Assembly: GCA_007695365.1 (NCBI GenBank)
Contig: REDV01000067.1
Location: forward strand, 1-32,745
DNA from: Cryomorphaceae bacterium
GTDB taxonomy: Bacteria > Bacteroidota > Bacteroidia > Flavobacteriales_D > SKUL01
Direction: 5' to 3'
DNA length: 32,745 bases
The translations under genes and the position numbers were made by a program. The notes under the pieces were generated by a model. That model made no database searches. It was not told the DNA's origin and was given only the letters and a program-made list of their open reading frames with translations. This document shows, piece by piece, positions 25,119 through 32,381 of this stretch (its first letter is position 1; each line of letters begins with the position of its first letter).

Positions 25119-25970
25119 TTACTTAATCTGAATAATGAGGTAACTTGTGGTACTCCAGAACAATTCGGGGTTGGTGATGATGAGCTTGTAGTCTTTGTCT
25201 GTTTCTCCTTCAAATGTGTAGGCTTCCGATGGGTGAGGTGAAAGCAGTTCGGCCTTTTTAGAACTCAGGTTGATTTCTGTAACCTCACGCTTGTCAATGG
25301 TCACAAAGTCATCCCGATTAAAATCCTGACGCATTTTTTTGCCCGCAATCAGTCCCGCACGCTCGGCAATATCCAATTCTTTCAGCTCTTTAAAGGTGCC
25401 TATTACGTAGTACACCTCGTTGGTTGTAGTGGTGAGCTGGTCGAGATTGGTTTGCGTTTTTCGGATCTCCGCAGCCAATTCCTCGTTCATCTTATTGAGA
25501 ATATCAATGGTGAAATTAGCGGCAACCAGGTTTTGCTTGAGATCTTCAATTTGTTTGTCCTTTTCTACAATTTGCCTTTCCAGCCCGTCAACAATGTTCT
25601 TGTAGCGCCCAACTTCGCCTTTGTAGTTGGAAACGGTTTTGTTGAGCTGGGCAATCTGTTCTTTGTTGGCCTGCAGCAGGGCGTTGATGTCCTGAATTTC
25701 GGCTTCAATGGCCGCGCGTTGATCGGTAGAGAGTTCAATGTTTTTACTTTCCAGCCGAATGGTTTCCTCACTTTCGCGAATCATGGCGAGATTGCGCGAA
25801 ATGGTGGCAAAGCTTTCATCAAATGCCACCAGTACAGAGTCTTTGTTTGCCGACTCCATTTCGAGCCGCGTTTTTTCGTGTTCCAGTTGTTCTATGCGCT
25901 GCTCAAGCTCCTGAGTGTTGCAAGACGCCAATAGTGCCAGTAACAGGCCGAGGGAAAGTAGGTTTTTCAT
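25119..25970 (-). CDS. Coiled-coil lipoprotein (283 aa)
   Basis: The start is the ATG at 25970 (MKNLLSLGLLLALLASC); the frame extends 13 codons further upstream without signal features. The lipobox LASC puts the lipidated Cys at residue 17. Residues about 20-185 are Leu/Glu/Lys/Gln-rich heptads, a long coiled coil. The C-terminal third (about 190-283) is globular, with NEVYYVIGTFKELKELDIAERAGLIAGKK and KDYKLIITNPELFWSTTSYLIIQIK. It resembles coiled-coil lipoproteins of Bacteroidota, some of which carry adhesin names (Cbp1-like), but I cannot confirm that label. An envelope-anchored location is supported. The acidic surface-export tract seen in the next lipoprotein is weak here (NTQELEQ). Confidence 0.82.
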   Translation of the reverse strand: MKNLLSLGLLLALLASCNTQELEQRIEQLEHEKTRLEMESANKDSVLVAFDESFATISRNLAMIRESEETIRLESKNIELSTDQRAAIEAEIQDINALLQANKEQIAQLNKTVSNYKGEVGRYKNIVDGLERQIVEKDKQIEDLKQNLVAANFTIDILNKMNEELAAEIRKTQTNLDQLTTTTNEVYYVIGTFKELKELDIAERAGLIAGKKMRQDFNRDDFVTIDKREVTEINLSSKKAELLSPHPSEAYTFEGETDKDYKLIITNPELFWSTTSYLIIQIK

Positions 25971-25987
25971 GGTTGTTCTGTTTGACG

Positions 25988-25995
25988 CAAAGTTA
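25988..25995 (-). promoter_or_regulatory. Possible -7 box of the coiled-coil lipoprotein gene
   Basis: TAACTTTG on the minus strand is a perfect TAnnTTTG match, 17 bp before the ATG at 25970. A TTG at 26012-26014 is only 16 bp further upstream, shorter than usual. Confidence 0.45.
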
Positions 25996-26071
25996 ACAGA
26001 AGCACCCATGCCAAAAACAGTGGATTACGAACTTTATTCACCGCTATTGGTGAATGATGCAAGGCTTATTC

Positions 26072-26781: not shown

Positions 26782-26789
26782 TACTTTTG
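26782..26789 (+). promoter_or_regulatory. Possible -7 box of the flavodoxin/Lol-like operon
   Basis: TACTTTTG is a perfect TAnnTTTG match, 18 bp before the ATG at 26808. No TTG was found at the expected distance upstream. The following six genes are on the same strand with short gaps, so this could be the operon promoter. Confidence 0.45.
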
Positions 26790-26807: not shown

Positions 26808-27305
26808 ATGCCTGGAAAAGTAGCCGTCATTTACGCCAGCAGACGAGGAGGAACCCGCCTTTTTGTTGAGCGCCTCCAACAAGAGCTGGGTGCTGCTCAA
26901 TGTGAGCTGTACGACCTCAAAGAAAATCCCTCACCAGTCATTGATTCTTCGGCAATCCGTGTGGTAGGTGGTCCGGTGTATGCCGGAAACATGCTCGAAG
27001 AAGTAAAAAAGTATTGCGAAAGCCAGCAGCAGGCGCTTTTGCAAAGTCGCCTGGCACTCTTTATGTGCGGAATGAATGAGCCGGCATTTGCAGAGCAGCT
27101 TAAAAATGCGTTCCCGGAACCATTGCAGCAACACGCTTTTTGTGTGAAAGCAGTTGGAGGGGCTTTTGATTTTGATAAACTCAATTGGTTTGAGCGATTC
27201 CTGGTAAAACGAATTTCGGGCGTGCGAAAAAGTACGGCACACTACCTGGAAGACAATATTGGCGCACTGGTAGGCGCAGTAAAGGCCGAAATGACCCAAC
27301 CCTGA
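26808..27305 (+). CDS. Flavodoxin-domain protein, HemG-like
   Basis: The 165-aa protein has a flavodoxin-like fold. It starts with strand VAVIYASRRGGTRLFVERLQQEL, whose loop is where FMN phosphate binds. The motif VVGGPVYAGNMLEEVKKYCE follows, then RLALFMCGMNEPAF, FCVKAVGGAFDFDKLNWFERFLVKRISGV and a C-terminal helix. The GG.FDFDKLNWFER.L part is typical of HemG-type protoporphyrinogen oxidases (Flavodoxin_5). HemG oxidises protoporphyrinogen IX with menaquinone, but many homologues have other roles, and no heme genes are nearby. It precedes the LolA-like gene by 6 bp and is probably cotranscribed with the lipid-trafficking operon. Confidence 0.75.
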   Translation: MPGKVAVIYASRRGGTRLFVERLQQELGAAQCELYDLKENPSPVIDSSAIRVVGGPVYAGNMLEEVKKYCESQQQALLQSRLALFMCGMNEPAFAEQLKNAFPEPLQQHAFCVKAVGGAFDFDKLNWFERFLVKRISGVRKSTAHYLEDNIGALVGAVKAEMTQP

Positions 27306-27311
27306 ACCATC

Positions 27312-28058
27312 ATGAAGAAATCATTCTCCATTCTATTGCTGGCATTTTTCTGGGCTTTGACGGGCATTGCCCAGGATGCGGGCGAGATTATCCGCAAAAT
27401 GGAAGATCGCATGCGCGGCGACGAAGTGTATATGGAGGTTACCATGGAAATTGTACGCCCCCGCTATACCCGCAGCATGAGCATGAAAAGCTGGGCCCTG
27501 GGCGAAGACTATTCGTTGATTCTTGTGACAGCACCGGCGCGCGATCGCGGTATTGCCTACCTCAAGCGCGACAAGGAAATCTGGAACTGGATGCCTTCCA
27601 TTGACCGGCTCATTAAATTGCCACCTTCCATGATGTCGCAATCGTGGATGGGGAGCGATTTTACCAACGACGACCTCGTGCGCGAAAGCTCAACCATCAC
27701 CGATTACGAACACAAACTGCTGGGGCAGGAAGAAACAGGTGGATACATGTGCTACAAAATTGAGATGATTCCCAAGCCTCACGCAGCGGTGGTTTGGGGC
27801 AAAGTATGGGTTTGGGTTTCCTCTGAACACTACTTTCAGCTACGTACTGAGCAATACGACGAACGTATGGAGTTGGTGAATACCATTGTTTTCAGTGATG
27901 TAAAAGACCTCGGCGGAAGGGATATTCCTGCACGCATGGAACTCACTCCGCACGATAAAAAAGGACATAAAACCGTGCTGGTTCAGGAATCGGCCGATTT
28001 TAGTCCGGGCCTCGACGTATCTTTCTTCTCCATTCAAAACCTGCAACGCGTACGATAA
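27312..28058 (+). CDS. LolA-like outer-membrane lipoprotein-sorting protein
   Basis: The 248-aa protein has a signal peptide (MKKSFSILLLAFFWALTGIAQ) and matches the LolA-like 'outer membrane lipoprotein-sorting protein' family: AGEIIRKMEDRMRGDEVYMEVTMEIVRPRYTRSM, then YSLILVTAPARDRGIAYLKRDKEIWNWMPSIDRLIKLPPSMMSQSWMGSDFTNDDLVRES, then YKIEMIPKP and RTEQYDERMELVNTIVFSDVKDLGGRDIPARMEL. Such proteins carry hydrophobic cargo across the periplasm in a half-barrel fold. Canonical LolA is about 200 aa, so this is a longer relative. It precedes two FtsX/LolC permeases and a LolD-type ATPase, so it is a plausible partner chaperone; whether the cargo is lipoprotein or lipid is not known. Confidence 0.85.
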   Translation: MKKSFSILLLAFFWALTGIAQDAGEIIRKMEDRMRGDEVYMEVTMEIVRPRYTRSMSMKSWALGEDYSLILVTAPARDRGIAYLKRDKEIWNWMPSIDRLIKLPPSMMSQSWMGSDFTNDDLVRESSTITDYEHKLLGQEETGGYMCYKIEMIPKPHAAVVWGKVWVWVSSEHYFQLRTEQYDERMELVNTIVFSDVKDLGGRDIPARMELTPHDKKGHKTVLVQESADFSPGLDVSFFSIQNLQRVR

Positions 28059-28091
28059 TTCTATGTGTAAACCGGCAAATACCCATAGCGC

Positions 28092-29318
28092 ATGTTCACC
28101 TTAATCGTTTTGGCATGGCGCAATCTTTGGCGCAACAAACGCCGCACATGGATCACCGTATTCTCGGTGGTTTTTGCGGTTTTCCTGGCTATTACACTCG
28201 AGTCGGTTGACAGGGGCTCGCAAGAGCAAATGGTGGAGAATGTGGTTGGTTTCTCAACCGGATACATCCGAATTCAGGATACGCTTTTCAAAGAAGAGCC
28301 CTCCATTGACAATACCATGTTTTACAGTGATGAACTGGAGAAGGCCCTGCTTGAGGAATTTCCGGCCATCGATTACCTCGTGCCTCGCATCGAAAGCCAC
28401 GCACTGGCAGCAGGCGAAACCAAGTCGAGGGTGGTATTGCTTATGGGAATTGACCCCGGGCAGGAAACGCGCTTCAACGATGTGCGTCATCGCTTACGCG
28501 AGGGCAGTTATTTTGAAGAGGGTAGTGGCACTGCGCTCATTGGCCTGGGGCTGGCCCAAAATCTAGAGCTCGGTGTGGGCGACACACTCGTCATGCTCGG
28601 TCAGGGTTTTCACGGCATGACAGCTGCCGGAAAATGGCCCGTGGGCGGAATTATCCATCACCCGGTACCCGAACTCAACGAAATGATTGTGTACCTCACC
28701 ATCGATGATGCACAGTGGTTCTTTATGGCCGACGATCGCCTTACTTCGCTGATGGTTACTCCGCGCAATCATTCGCGCCACAAGCAGCTTGCAGATGCCC
28801 TGGCGGCATCTTCACTACTCCATGACTACAGTGTATATACCTGGGAGGAATTGCAACCTGAACTGGTTCGTACCATTGCCTTCGACCAGGCGGGTACCAA
28901 AATATTTTTGCTCATCCTGTATGTGGTCATTGCTTTTGGAATATTCGGAACGGTGCTCACCATGACCCTTGAGCGCGAACGAGAATTCGGAATGCTCATA
29001 AGCCTCGGGCTTCACCGCTGGAAACTGGGATTGGTGGTCTTTGTAGAAACACTTATCATCAACGGAATGGGGGTGCTCATCGGAGCGCTTTTGTCGCTTC
29101 CGGTGATATTCTATTTCTATTTCAACCCCATTGGCCTCGGCGTAGAACTGGAGTCGCTCATGGCCGAGTACGGAATGGATGCGGTGCTGCCTTTCTCACT
29201 CGACCCACGCATTTTTACCGAGCAGGGCACCATGGTGTTTTTCATCAGTATGGTGATTGTGGCCTATCCGCTTAGCAGAATAATGACATTGAACATACTC
29301 GATGCTTCACGAAAATAA
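28092..29318 (+). CDS. ABC transporter permease, FtsX/LolC-type (first)
   Basis: The 408-aa protein has the four-helix FtsX/LolC layout. One N-terminal helix follows LAWRNLWRNKRRTWIT. A large extracytoplasmic domain spans about 40-265. Three C-terminal helices follow (about 270-295 IFLLILYVVIAFGIFGTVLTMT, 315-345 and 375-400), with the coupling-helix-like LEREREFGMLISLGLHRWKL between them. This is the mechanotransmission (MacB/LolCDE) class, which extracts lipids or lipoproteins or drives periplasmic work rather than importing solutes. It is followed after 6 bp by a second permease that shares the WRNxWRNKxR start, so the transporter is probably a heterodimer. The start is at an ATG after a 33-bp gap. 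Confidence 0.88.
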   Translation: MFTLIVLAWRNLWRNKRRTWITVFSVVFAVFLAITLESVDRGSQEQMVENVVGFSTGYIRIQDTLFKEEPSIDNTMFYSDELEKALLEEFPAIDYLVPRIESHALAAGETKSRVVLLMGIDPGQETRFNDVRHRLREGSYFEEGSGTALIGLGLAQNLELGVGDTLVMLGQGFHGMTAAGKWPVGGIIHHPVPELNEMIVYLTIDDAQWFFMADDRLTSLMVTPRNHSRHKQLADALAASSLLHDYSVYTWEELQPELVRTIAFDQAGTKIFLLILYVVIAFGIFGTVLTMTLEREREFGMLISLGLHRWKLGLVVFVETLIINGMGVLIGALLSLPVIFYFYFNPIGLGVELESLMAEYGMDAVLPFSLDPRIFTEQGTMVFFISMVIVAYPLSRIMTLNILDASRK

Positions 29319-29324
29319 GACACC

Positions 29325-30536
29325 ATGATACTGCGAATGGCATGGAGAAATATCTGGCGCAATAAGTTGCGGAGCATCACCATTATGATGGCCGTGGCGC
29401 TGGGACTTACGGCCGGAGTGTTTGCCTCGGCCATGATCAACGGAATGATGCAGTCCAGATTTCACGAGTTTATTGAAAACCAAATTTCCCACCTTCAGTT
29501 GCATCATCCCGATTTTGTGGGTCAGCAGGAAGTGTATCAGCACACCGGTGTGCCACGCGACCAACTCGACCGGGTACTGGAAAACCCAATGGTTCGCGCG
29601 GCTACTGTTCGCACAAAAGTACACAGCATGATTGCATCGGCCACCTATACGGGCGGAGTTGAGCTGATGGGAGTACTGCCTGAAAATGAAAAGCAAACCA
29701 CCGGTTTTCACAACAATGTGGTGGAAGGAAATTACCTCGAAAAGCACGGTACCAATGAAATCCTGTTGGGGAGCGCCCTCGCCGAAAAAATGCGCGTGCA
29801 GGTGGGTTCCCGGGTGGTGCTCACGTTTCAGGATGTTGACCACAACATGGTCAGCGCGGCCTTCCTGGTTACCGGTCTGTATGAAACGGGCTACACCCGC
29901 TATGATGAGAGTTTTGCACTCGTTCACATGGATTATCTCAACAACCAGATTAATATTGGAAATTCGTTTCACGAGATGGCCCTTCTGCTCACCGATATTG
30001 ATCACATCCCCGCCATGACAAAAGAATTGGAAGTGATGTTTCCCGGTTTGCACGTGCGCGCCTGGAACGAAGTGAGCCCGGAGATGAGCGTTCTGGTTGA
30101 AGCGGGCGATGTATTTGCCTACATTTTTCTTGTGATTATCCTGCTCGGACTCGCCTTTGGACTCCTCAATACCATGCTGATGGCCGTGTACGAGCGCACC
30201 CGCGAAATCGGTATGATGATGGCCATTGGCATGAACAAGCAGCGCATTTTTGCACTCATTCTTTTCGAAACCCTTGCGCTATCGTTGGTTGGAGGAGTAT
30301 TCGGAATTGTGGGCTCCTGGGCTATTGTTTCGTGGGTGAGCAGGGTAGGAATTGACCTGTCTGCCTTTGACGATGTGATGAAAGAAATCGGCTTCTCGCC
30401 GGTAATTTACCCCGTACTGGAGACTGCTTTTTTCATCACGCTGATCTTGTTTGTGATGCTCACGGCTTTGATTGCTTCCATATACCCTTCACTGAGGGCC
30501 ATGCGCCTCAATCCCGCTGAATCCGCCAAAAGATAG
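29325..30536 (+). CDS. ABC transporter permease, FtsX/LolE-type (second)
   Basis: The 403-aa protein is a diverged paralogue of the preceding permease. The N-terminal motif MAWRNIWRNKLRSITIMMAVALGLTAGVFA leads into the first helix. A periplasmic domain covers about 40-260, and helices lie near 262-285 (VFAYIFLVIILLGLAFGLLNTMLMAV), 315-340 and 365-390. The cytoplasmic turn YERTREIGMMMAIGMNKQRIFALILFETLAL is the FtsX-family coupling segment. It ends SIYPSLRAMRLNPAESAKR, also typical of the family (the 'P...A' motif). A 7-bp gap separates it from the ATPase gene. It is expected to form the inner-membrane complex with the first permease. Confidence 0.9.
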   Translation: MILRMAWRNIWRNKLRSITIMMAVALGLTAGVFASAMINGMMQSRFHEFIENQISHLQLHHPDFVGQQEVYQHTGVPRDQLDRVLENPMVRAATVRTKVHSMIASATYTGGVELMGVLPENEKQTTGFHNNVVEGNYLEKHGTNEILLGSALAEKMRVQVGSRVVLTFQDVDHNMVSAAFLVTGLYETGYTRYDESFALVHMDYLNNQINIGNSFHEMALLLTDIDHIPAMTKELEVMFPGLHVRAWNEVSPEMSVLVEAGDVFAYIFLVIILLGLAFGLLNTMLMAVYERTREIGMMMAIGMNKQRIFALILFETLALSLVGGVFGIVGSWAIVSWVSRVGIDLSAFDDVMKEIGFSPVIYPVLETAFFITLILFVMLTALIASIYPSLRAMRLNPAESAKR

Positions 30537-30543
30537 AATTGCT

Positions 30544-31227
30544 ATGTCTGTAATCCGCACCCAAAACCTCACCCGCATCTACAACCCCGACGAAGTGCCG
30601 GTGTACGCTCTGAACGATGTTACCCTGAGCTTTGAGGAAAAAGAGTTCACCTGCGTGATTGGTCCATCGGGCTCGGGGAAATCCACCTTGCTCAATATGA
30701 TTGGCGGGCTGGACAAACCCACATCGGGAGAGGTGTATGTGGACGAGCAGCGTATTGATAAAATGTCTGAAAACAAGTTGATTGACTTTAGGTTGCAGCA
30801 CATAGGCTTTGTTTTTCAGTATTTCAACCTTATACCTGTACTTACAGCCTATGAAAATGCTGCTTTTATCATGCAGCTTCAGGGCAGACCCGAGTCTGAG
30901 ATCCGCGAGCGTGTGACCACTTTGCTTGATGAGGTAGGCCTCTCCAAACGGATGGATTACCGCCCTGCACAGCTTTCGGGAGGTGAGCAGCAGCGTGTGG
31001 CTGTGGTGCGGGCCATGGCATCCAAACCCCGGTTTATTCTGGCCGATGAACCCACGGCCAACCTCGATTCCAAAGCAGCCTTTCGGTTGCTTGATATCAT
31101 GGCACAACTCAATGATGAGGAGGGAATAACCTTTATTTTCTCTACCCACGATCAGCGGGTGATTGACCGCGTGCGACGCGTGGTTAAAATGGTGGATGGC
31201 AAAATTGACGAAGACGTTGTGCGGTGA
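30544..31227 (+). CDS. ABC transporter ATP-binding protein, LolD/MacB-type
   Basis: The 227-aa protein has all nucleotide-binding motifs: Walker A GPSGSGKST (about residue 40), Q-loop FVFQYFNLIPVLTAYEN, signature LSGGEQQRVAVVRAM, Walker B FILADEPTANLD and the H-loop FSTHD. The phrase FQYFNLIPVLTAYENAA is typical of the LolD/MacB/FtsE group. It would power the two FtsX-type permeases encoded just upstream. The gene overlaps the next one by 4 bp (GTGA), which supports translational coupling. Confidence 0.96.
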   Translation: MSVIRTQNLTRIYNPDEVPVYALNDVTLSFEEKEFTCVIGPSGSGKSTLLNMIGGLDKPTSGEVYVDEQRIDKMSENKLIDFRLQHIGFVFQYFNLIPVLTAYENAAFIMQLQGRPESEIRERVTTLLDEVGLSKRMDYRPAQLSGGEQQRVAVVRAMASKPRFILADEPTANLDSKAAFRLLDIMAQLNDEEGITFIFSTHDQRVIDRVRRVVKMVDGKIDEDVVR

Positions 31228-32381
31228 GTTTGCGTTGCGTCACGTTGTGGGTAGCATGGCTGATATCAGGAGTACTCAGCGCTCAGACCTACCCGGAGGC
31301 TCCGAGGCTCGACGGTTATGTGAAGTACCTTCCGTCGTTGAGGCTCTCGAGCGACCTCGATGAGGTTTTCTTTGACCAGTTGGTGCACAACCGCATCAAT
31401 TTCAACTGGCAAATTGCCGAACCCGTAAGAGTACACGCCGGGTTGCGTACGCGTGTGTTTCAGGGATACAATGTGCGAAATGTGCCGTTCTACCGATCAT
31501 TTCTTGAGCAGGATTTTGGTGCCATTGATGCCTCATGGGTATTGTTTCAGGAAGGCTCGTGGATGATGCACACTACACCCGACCGGTTTTTTGTGGATAT
31601 AGAGAAAGGCAAGTGGAGGGTTCGCGCTGGTCGGCAGCGTATTAACTGGGGTATTAACATGGTATCCAATCCCAACGACCTTTTTAATACCTACTCCTTT
31701 TTTGATTTCGACTACGAAGAACGTCCCGGTACCGACGCATTGCGGGTGCAGTACTTTGCGGGCTCACTGTCGAGGATTGAGGTAGCGGTTGCCCCCGGGC
31801 GAACTTTGAACGAATCCGTAGCGGCCATGCTCTACAGTGCCAACTTCAGCGGTTACGACCTTCAGGCTATTGCCGGGTACTTTCGCAACCGACTCGCACT
31901 GGGGGGCGGTTGGGCAGGAAACATTAAATCTGCAGGCTTCAAGGGCGAGGTAACTTTCTTTAGTGATCTTGAGCCTGTTGAAGGCATTGAAGCATCCAAC
32001 CTGGTGCTTGCTTTTTCTGCGGATTACCTCTTTGGCAACGGCATGTATGTGCTGGTGGAATACCTCTTTAACCAACAACGCAGGGGAGTGGAAGCCGACC
32101 TGATGCTCTTTGTACAGCCGCTCTCTGCCGACAACCTCTCGTTTACAGATCACGCCGTGTTTGCCACGTGGCGCTATCCGTTCTCGCCGGTTTTCAGTAC
32201 CGGACTTGCCGCTTTTTACTTCCCCACAGAAAGCGGTATGTTTCTCTCTCCTTCGGTAGAGTGGAGTGTGCGCCAAAACCTCGATTTCATGTTTATTTCG
32301 CAGTTGTTTATGGGCAGGCAGGGCAGTATACTTTCACAGGCCGGCTACCTCGGGGCAGTGGTGTTGAAGTGGTCTTTTTAG
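31224..32381 (+). CDS. Predicted outer-membrane beta-barrel protein of the ABC operon
   Basis: The start is a GTG at 31224 within the GTGA overlap with the ATPase stop, giving 385 aa with a signal peptide (LRCVTLWVAWLISGVLSAQ). The mature part alternates amphipathic strands with Gly/Asn turns (RINFNWQIAEPVRVHAGLRTRVFQ, WRVRAGRQRINWGINMVSNPNDLFN, RNRLALGGGWAGN, YLFGNGMYVLVEYLFNQQ) and ends in VLKWSF, a C-terminal Phe as in outer-membrane barrels. The 'R.GRQRINWG...NPNDLF' segment resembles DUF1302/porin-like proteins that sit next to LolA-like genes elsewhere. A barrel is inferred from pattern only. As last gene of the operon it could receive cargo at the outer membrane. Confidence 0.75.
   Translation: MSLRCVTLWVAWLISGVLSAQTYPEAPRLDGYVKYLPSLRLSSDLDEVFFDQLVHNRINFNWQIAEPVRVHAGLRTRVFQGYNVRNVPFYRSFLEQDFGAIDASWVLFQEGSWMMHTTPDRFFVDIEKGKWRVRAGRQRINWGINMVSNPNDLFNTYSFFDFDYEERPGTDALRVQYFAGSLSRIEVAVAPGRTLNESVAAMLYSANFSGYDLQAIAGYFRNRLALGGGWAGNIKSAGFKGEVTFFSDLEPVEGIEASNLVLAFSADYLFGNGMYVLVEYLFNQQRRGVEADLMLFVQPLSADNLSFTDHAVFATWRYPFSPVFSTGLAAFYFPTESGMFLSPSVEWSVRQNLDFMFISQLFMGRQGSILSQAGYLGAVVLKWSF

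Follow-up and report, generated by a model that had tools for sequence, protein, structure and literature searches.

A conserved Bacteroidota module of five genes for a LolCE-type transporter, a LolA-like carrier and a predicted outer-membrane barrel

Five linked genes form a conserved module

Within the window, the 32,745-nt stretch of Cryomorphaceae bacterium contig REDV01000067.1 that we analyzed (all coordinates refer to it, forward strand), five closely linked genes encode a LolA-like carrier, two FtsX-type permeases, an ATP-binding cassette (ABC) ATPase and a predicted outer-membrane barrel. These genes are a conserved, selected and widespread module of Bacteroidota, far beyond what chance would produce, and we propose, at a probability of roughly 0.55, that they provide an accessory, inducible, ATP-driven path by which a lipid or an amphiphilic small molecule leaves the inner membrane and reaches the outer membrane or crosses it. 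The proposal builds on what computation shows: the five-gene unit with its kept order, the folds predicted for permease 1 and for the barrel, homology to sets driven by resistance-nodulation-division (RND) pumps, and the separate LolA1 and LolB1 genes of the same genome. The original prediction, made from this DNA alone, had described the five genes as linked by gaps of 6–33 bp or a 4-bp overlap, and the open reading frames bear out the coordinates exactly:

27312..28058, + strand: LolA-like carrier; PF17131 (LolA_like), 182.7 bits (cut-off 30); 6-bp gap after a flavodoxin gene
28092..29318, + strand: permease 1; MacB_PCD and FtsX domains (Pfam); 33-bp gap after the carrier
29325..30536, + strand: permease 2; MacB_PCD and FtsX domains (Pfam); 6-bp gap after permease 1
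30544..31227, + strand: LolD/MacB-type ABC ATPase; PF00005, 119 bits; 7-bp gap after permease 2
31224..32381, + strand: outer-membrane barrel (predicted structure); GTG start; 4-bp overlap with the ATPase

We searched a species-level genome collection with a barrel profile built from an alignment of eight barrels, and found barrel relatives in at least 562 of 585 candidate stretches. In the gene-neighborhood survey that the original prediction had proposed, the exact order carrier-permease 1-permease 2-ATPase-barrel on one strand was kept in 51 of the 86 loci examined, most of the remainder being ended by contig edges, and the median intergenic gaps in module loci were 37, 15, 28.5 and 3 bp. 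The module occurs in at least the orders Flavobacteriales, Cytophagales, Bacteroidales, Marinilabiliales, Saprospirales and Balneolales. Independent searches for PF17131 and for the barrel in 296 Bacteroidota genomes revealed a same-strand PF17131 gene within 9 kb upstream of 67 of 72 barrel genes, mostly at a carrier-barrel spacing of 3.1–4.4 kb, which equals the length of three genes. When compared to a congener (G001), the carrier was 91.5% and permease 1 was 95.6% identical, with ratios of nonsynonymous to synonymous substitution (dN/dS) of 0.046 and 0.040, respectively, indicating purifying selection. An apparent absence of the module from this congener, in which no barrel was found, was overturned, because the contig there breaks off within permease 1. 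Among 60 relatives from the same order, the barrel was present in 8 and the module in at least 9, counting the truncated congener.

Several loci departed from this plan. Three of the 86 carried a second permease pair ahead of the barrel; such a pair lay in the operon, before or after the barrel gene, at L047, L050 and L057 and, with another order, at L049 and L066, and the two pairs possibly represent two cargo specificities that share one ATPase and one carrier. At L024 (2123-5010; genome G040), three genes stand between ATPase and barrel, two of which match the candidate defense system HEC-01 (HEC-01A, 400 bits; HEC-01B, 206 bits) and the third of which has no family. Loci whose records name Thalassobius (L092), Thalassovita (L105) and a PVC group bacterium (L103) carry the Bacteroidota module and are probably misbinned contigs. 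At L194, L195 and L199, a PF17131 gene stands alone, with neither a transporter nor a barrel gene beside it, and represents a different paralogue.

Predicted folds of the carrier, the transporter and the barrel

The prediction of a periplasmic LolA-like carrier held up: in addition to its strong PF17131 match, the protein has a signal peptide without a lipobox, as judged by eye, and its solved relatives (9tp6, 4z48, 3buu and 3bk5) belong to the LolA superfamily. It matched no NCBIfam family and neither LolA equivalog (TIGR00547 and NF053572).

A heterodimeric LolCE-type permease had also been predicted, in agreement with the fold of permease 1, the one of the two whose model was compared, and with the placement of the two proteins in separate paralogous clades. 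The predicted model of permease 1 was nearest LolE (Z 29.8 over 373 residues, root-mean-square deviation [rmsd] 4.4 to 9xro_E), and its top nine structural matches were all LolE or LolC (Z 24.5–29.8), MacB reaching up to Z 19.7. The permease tree placed the two proteins in sister clades apart from E. coli LolC and LolE and from the LolE-like proteins of the same genome, which sit on long branches. Where LolC has its Hook, permease 1 carries the conserved loop GQG[FY]xGxxAAG; in this region E. coli LolC is six residues longer than either permease, each of which has a conserved loop of its own, and permease C93 of the same genome is short too. Against the LolCE equivalog TIGR02212 (cut-off 362 bits), permeases 1 and 2 scored 91 and 131 bits, respectively; the cut-off was also missed by the rbfA-linked LolE-like permease of the genome (175.6 bits), indicating that it does not separate such proteins in Bacteroidota. 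The window ATPase scored 225 bits against TIGR02211, under the cut-off of 307.75, and was the fourth-best LolD-like match in the genome. Going by the model, LolCDE-type seems a fair description of a possible working mode.

The last protein was expected to be an outer-membrane barrel, and its AlphaFold2 model is indeed a barrel of 18 strands, counted from DSSP elements (mean predicted local distance difference test score [pLDDT] 92.4; predicted template modeling score [pTM] 0.86). The best solved matches of the model were 18-strand porins (Z 24.4 over 324 residues, rmsd 3.2), with chitoporin at Z 24.4, OprD/Occ at about 23 and AlgE at about 22; the 50 matches listed by a second structural alignment were to porins, AlgE, Wzi and LamB. 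No Omp85, LptD or FadL was among the matches listed for the barrel, an absence that excludes nothing. The C-terminus (...KWSF) is as expected of outer-membrane barrels, and an invariant core, GRQRxNWG...NxND.FN, lies mostly within a long loop (139–169). By sequence, the barrel has no solved relative and belongs to no Pfam or NCBIfam family, its score against DUF1302 (PF06980) being 13.7 bits, under the cut-off of 23.2.

Homologous carrier-barrel units with an RND engine

The original prediction had pointed to similar sets, known in other bacteria, in which RND pumps take the place of the ABC transporter. We found such sets in Bacteroidota loci, where a PF17131 carrier and a homologous barrel accompany an MMPL pump in the arrangements TetR-carrier-barrel-MMPL (L181 and L182), MMPL-carrier-barrel (L184) and TetR-MMPL-YtfJ-carrier-barrel (L189 and L190); Pfam was run on representatives, L182 and L190 being assigned from close similarity to L181 and L189. 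As in the module, a PF17131 carrier is paired with a homologous barrel, which it adjoins in these sets, and a TetR regulator recurs, whereas the MMPL pump replaces the two permeases and the ATPase. Some barrels of the RND sets exceed the DUF1302 cut-off, and comparing the ABC-type barrel profile with these DUF1302-positive barrels gave a profile-profile probability of 98.7% (E 2e-16) spanning the core GRQRxNWG; judged from the profiles, the barrel is a distant DUF1302 relative. Two engine types that are unrelated to each other, ABC and RND, thus serve homologous carrier-barrel units, which suggests a cargo defined by the carrier and the barrel, with the engines being swapped.

Comparable plans have been described in other systems. 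In P. gingivalis, limitation of iron or heme strongly induces a TetR-MMPL-carrier-hypothetical set (PMC10434189, PMC10470040); it is probably an RND-type counterpart, with the PG1178 product as a candidate barrel of this family. AmeABCD of Castellaniella defragrans serves efflux of apolar monoterpenes (PMC6394551); among its parts are a DUF1302 barrel, a LolA-superfamily protein of the DUF1329 family and an RND pump. It shares with the module a carrier, a DUF1302-type barrel and an inner-membrane engine, the homology running via the DUF1302-positive barrels with AmeA itself outside the comparison, but it differs in its proton-driven RND engine, its DUF1329 rather than PF17131 carrier and its extra AmeC; where an Ame-type set has its RND (MMPL) engine, the module has a pair of FtsX-type permeases with an ABC ATPase. 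Export of a non-polar ligand has been proposed for a Borrelia set of LolA-like, MacB-like and Omp85 proteins (PMC13078400). This cluster (BBJ23-BBJ29) also unites an ABC transporter, a LolA-like carrier and an outer-membrane barrel, but has a homodimeric MacB-like permease, an Omp85-family barrel and TPR proteins where the module has a heterodimer and a porin-like barrel. MacAB-TolC shares the MacB_PCD/FtsX permease domains; unlike it, the module includes no MacA-type adaptor or TolC, and the module permease fold is nearer LolCE. In literature naming PF17131 or LolA_like, with most subscription journals outside the search, we found no paper on this ABC-driven five-gene set, but precedents exist for all of its parts and for its plan.

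The module is probably separate from the housekeeping lipoprotein pathway

The statement that Bacteroidota lack an obvious LolB, with which the original prediction had argued, is outdated: LolB1 has been described in Bacteroidota (PMC11885536) and is encoded in the genome studied here (C91; NF053559, 182 bits, cut-off 50), as is LolA1 (C41; 180 bits, cut-off 100), both elsewhere than the module. The same genome has a LolE-like permease beside rbfA that outscores the window pair (175.6 versus 91 and 131 bits) and three LolD-like ATPases at 245–269 bits versus 225 for that of the window. Because these separate LolA1 and LolB1 genes and better-scoring LolE and LolD candidates exist, a main role in housekeeping lipoprotein localization (Lol) was rejected, and the module is probably an accessory Lol-type relay and not the cell's lipoprotein pathway. 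Among the order relatives, LolA1 exceeded its cut-off in 57 of 60 and LolB1 in 60 of 60, versus 8 of 60 for the module barrel. Named in advance as refuting the original prediction were a separate, complete and essential LolCDE-LolA set together with the lack of the module in most relatives, or a last protein that forms no barrel; a separate LolA1/LolB1 set with LolE and LolD candidates was seen, as was the absence of the module from most order relatives, and the last protein is predicted to be a barrel. As for the cargo, for which a lipoprotein or another lipid had been considered, the separate Lol set and the patchy occurrence weaken the lipoprotein reading, and a lipid or amphiphile is the best reading.

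The module resembles the Lol systems of E. coli (LolABCDE) and of Bacteroidota (LolA1/LolB1; PMC11885536) in its LolCE-type fold, LolD-type ATPase and LolA-superfamily carrier. It differs from them in having, instead of the receptor lipoprotein LolB, an 18-strand barrel at the outer membrane as its last protein, as well as in a carrier of another Pfam family, permeases in clades of their own, an accessory and patchy occurrence, and a regulator ahead of it in most loci.

Proposed function and alternatives

In loci with room upstream, Pfam assigned the gene directly ahead of the carrier to TetR regulators in 29 and to MarR-like regulators in 12 (together 41 of 57). In 8 loci the gene directly after the barrel, or after the second permease pair, encodes a patatin phospholipase, and in 12 a CAP-domain protein lies between ATPase and barrel. 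Regulators, patatin and CAP suggest that a lipid or amphiphile is handled inducibly, though each is tied to particular lineages; the module would be inducible going by the regulators ahead of the carrier in relatives, a slot that the flavodoxin occupies in the window. In single-permease cousins at L185 and L196, genes for a ketosynthase, FabG-like reductases, an ATPase, a KASIII/chalcone-synthase-like protein, one permease, a PF17131 carrier, a barrel and an NmrA-like protein stand in a row; they may form a gene cluster for a lipid or polyketide that brings along a dedicated exporter.

In the proposed path, whose direction, order of hand-over, contacts and cargo class we infer along with its inducibility in the source organism, the heterodimeric LolCE-type permease and its ATPase dimer would pull the molecule from the inner membrane, the LolA-like carrier would hold it in its half-barrel and cross the periplasm, and the 18-strand barrel would take it and release it into the outer membrane or outside. 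Transport of lipids other than lipopolysaccharide to the outer membrane, and the building of the Bacteroidota outer membrane, are largely open questions, and this compact conserved set holds an engine, a carrier and an outer-membrane protein together. Several points weigh against this path. LolCE-type permeases of known function extract lipoproteins, which makes a lipoprotein cargo possible; no gene in the window points to a lipid pathway; each of the patatin, CAP and ketosynthase associations occurs only in a single lineage or in cousins of the module; control by TetR/MarR would be just as fitting for drug efflux; and the housekeeping permeases sit on long branches, leaving their exact placement in the tree unsure.

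Efflux of toxic hydrophobic compounds is the foremost alternative, possible though clearly less probable than the lipid or amphiphile path; here the module would be an ATP-driven relative of Ame- or MacAB-type export that rids the inner membrane of environmental amphiphiles or antibiotics. The one-component TetR/MarR regulators before the carrier, the porin-like barrel and the monoterpene efflux served by the DUF1302 barrel, DUF1329 protein and RND pump of AmeABCD (PMC6394551) favor it, but the set is without a membrane-fusion protein or TolC, its permease fold is nearer LolCE than MacB, and the strict five-gene order and the carrier protein suggest a defined, lipid-like cargo. We consider it unlikely that the module is a second, specialized lipoprotein pathway, in which the carrier would move a subset of lipoproteins and the barrel would insert them or pass them to the surface. 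Such a role would suit the LolCE-type fold, and surface lipoproteins of F. johnsoniae localize without any known LolA or LolB, implying another route (PMC11885536). It is at odds with the patchy barrel beside near-universal LolA1 and LolB1, the TetR/MarR control, the RND counterparts and an 18-strand porin-like barrel that has no known insertase fold. Least probable is import or retrograde transport, in which a molecule from outside would enter by way of the barrel and be returned to, or sensed at, the inner membrane by the carrier and permease: the nearest solved barrels include OprD/Occ substrate-uptake porins, and type VII ABC proteins can act as mechanotransmitters, but there is no periplasmic binding protein or importer-type ABC in the set, LolCE-type permeases of known function work outward, and the RND counterparts are expected to export.

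A barrel subfamily that gathers the sampled soda-lake loci

We built a barrel tree from 80 loci (L041-L120) that had been picked for their similarity to the window; among named relatives, the one nearest to the window is a soda-lake metagenome-assembled genome. All 27 loci that we take to be soda-lake or haloalkaliphile, from record titles and partly from general background on the sample names, fell into one 34-row barrel clade across several orders. The habitat label changed 6 times on this tree versus a shuffled mean of 22 (minimum 15); taxonomic order likewise left a signal (14 changes versus 36). Because the isolates Cecembia, Nitritalea and Natronoflexus are members of the clade, misbinning alone does not explain it. 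Habitat-linked horizontal transfer of the barrel subfamily is possible, as read from a barrel tree of similarity-chosen loci. A more specific version, which we hold to be doubtful, is that the module is the ABC-driven twin of the RND carrier-barrel exporters and exports lipid to the outer membrane, that the subfamily was passed among orders in soda lakes, and that the cargo is an envelope lipid aiding cells at high pH; if so, the small proton gradient in soda lakes would favor ATP over proton drive. Only or mostly this subfamily shows MarR-type regulators, a patatin gene downstream and a duplicated pair of permeases.

The flavodoxin gene and other features of the window

Two features lie ahead of the carrier in the window:

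26782..26789, + strand: candidate Bacteroidota -7 promoter element TACTTTTG; match to the pattern TANNTTTG, 18 bp upstream of the flavodoxin start
26808..27305, + strand: flavodoxin; PF12724 (Flavodoxin_5), 80.2 bits

The flavodoxin that the original prediction had set in front of the five genes is present at the locus and lies outside the conserved set. It is 82% identical and co-linear in the congener, and a co-linear flavodoxin was confined to the source genus (2 of 60 genomes searched, its own included; absent from the other 58) and found in none of the 86 survey loci, which ruled it out as a module member. The gene is a genus-specific passenger, occupying the slot of the TetR or MarR regulator in most relatives; against the HemG equivalog its product scored 30.7 bits, under the cut-off of 142. 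The pattern TANNTTTG had 13 matches in the window versus 18 expected by chance, and with no excess the promoter position is suggestive only. Further upstream, on the opposite strand (25119-26009, -), a gene encodes a coiled-coil protein above the cut-off of NF052320 (Cbp1 family collagen-binding adhesin; 201.9 bits versus 90).

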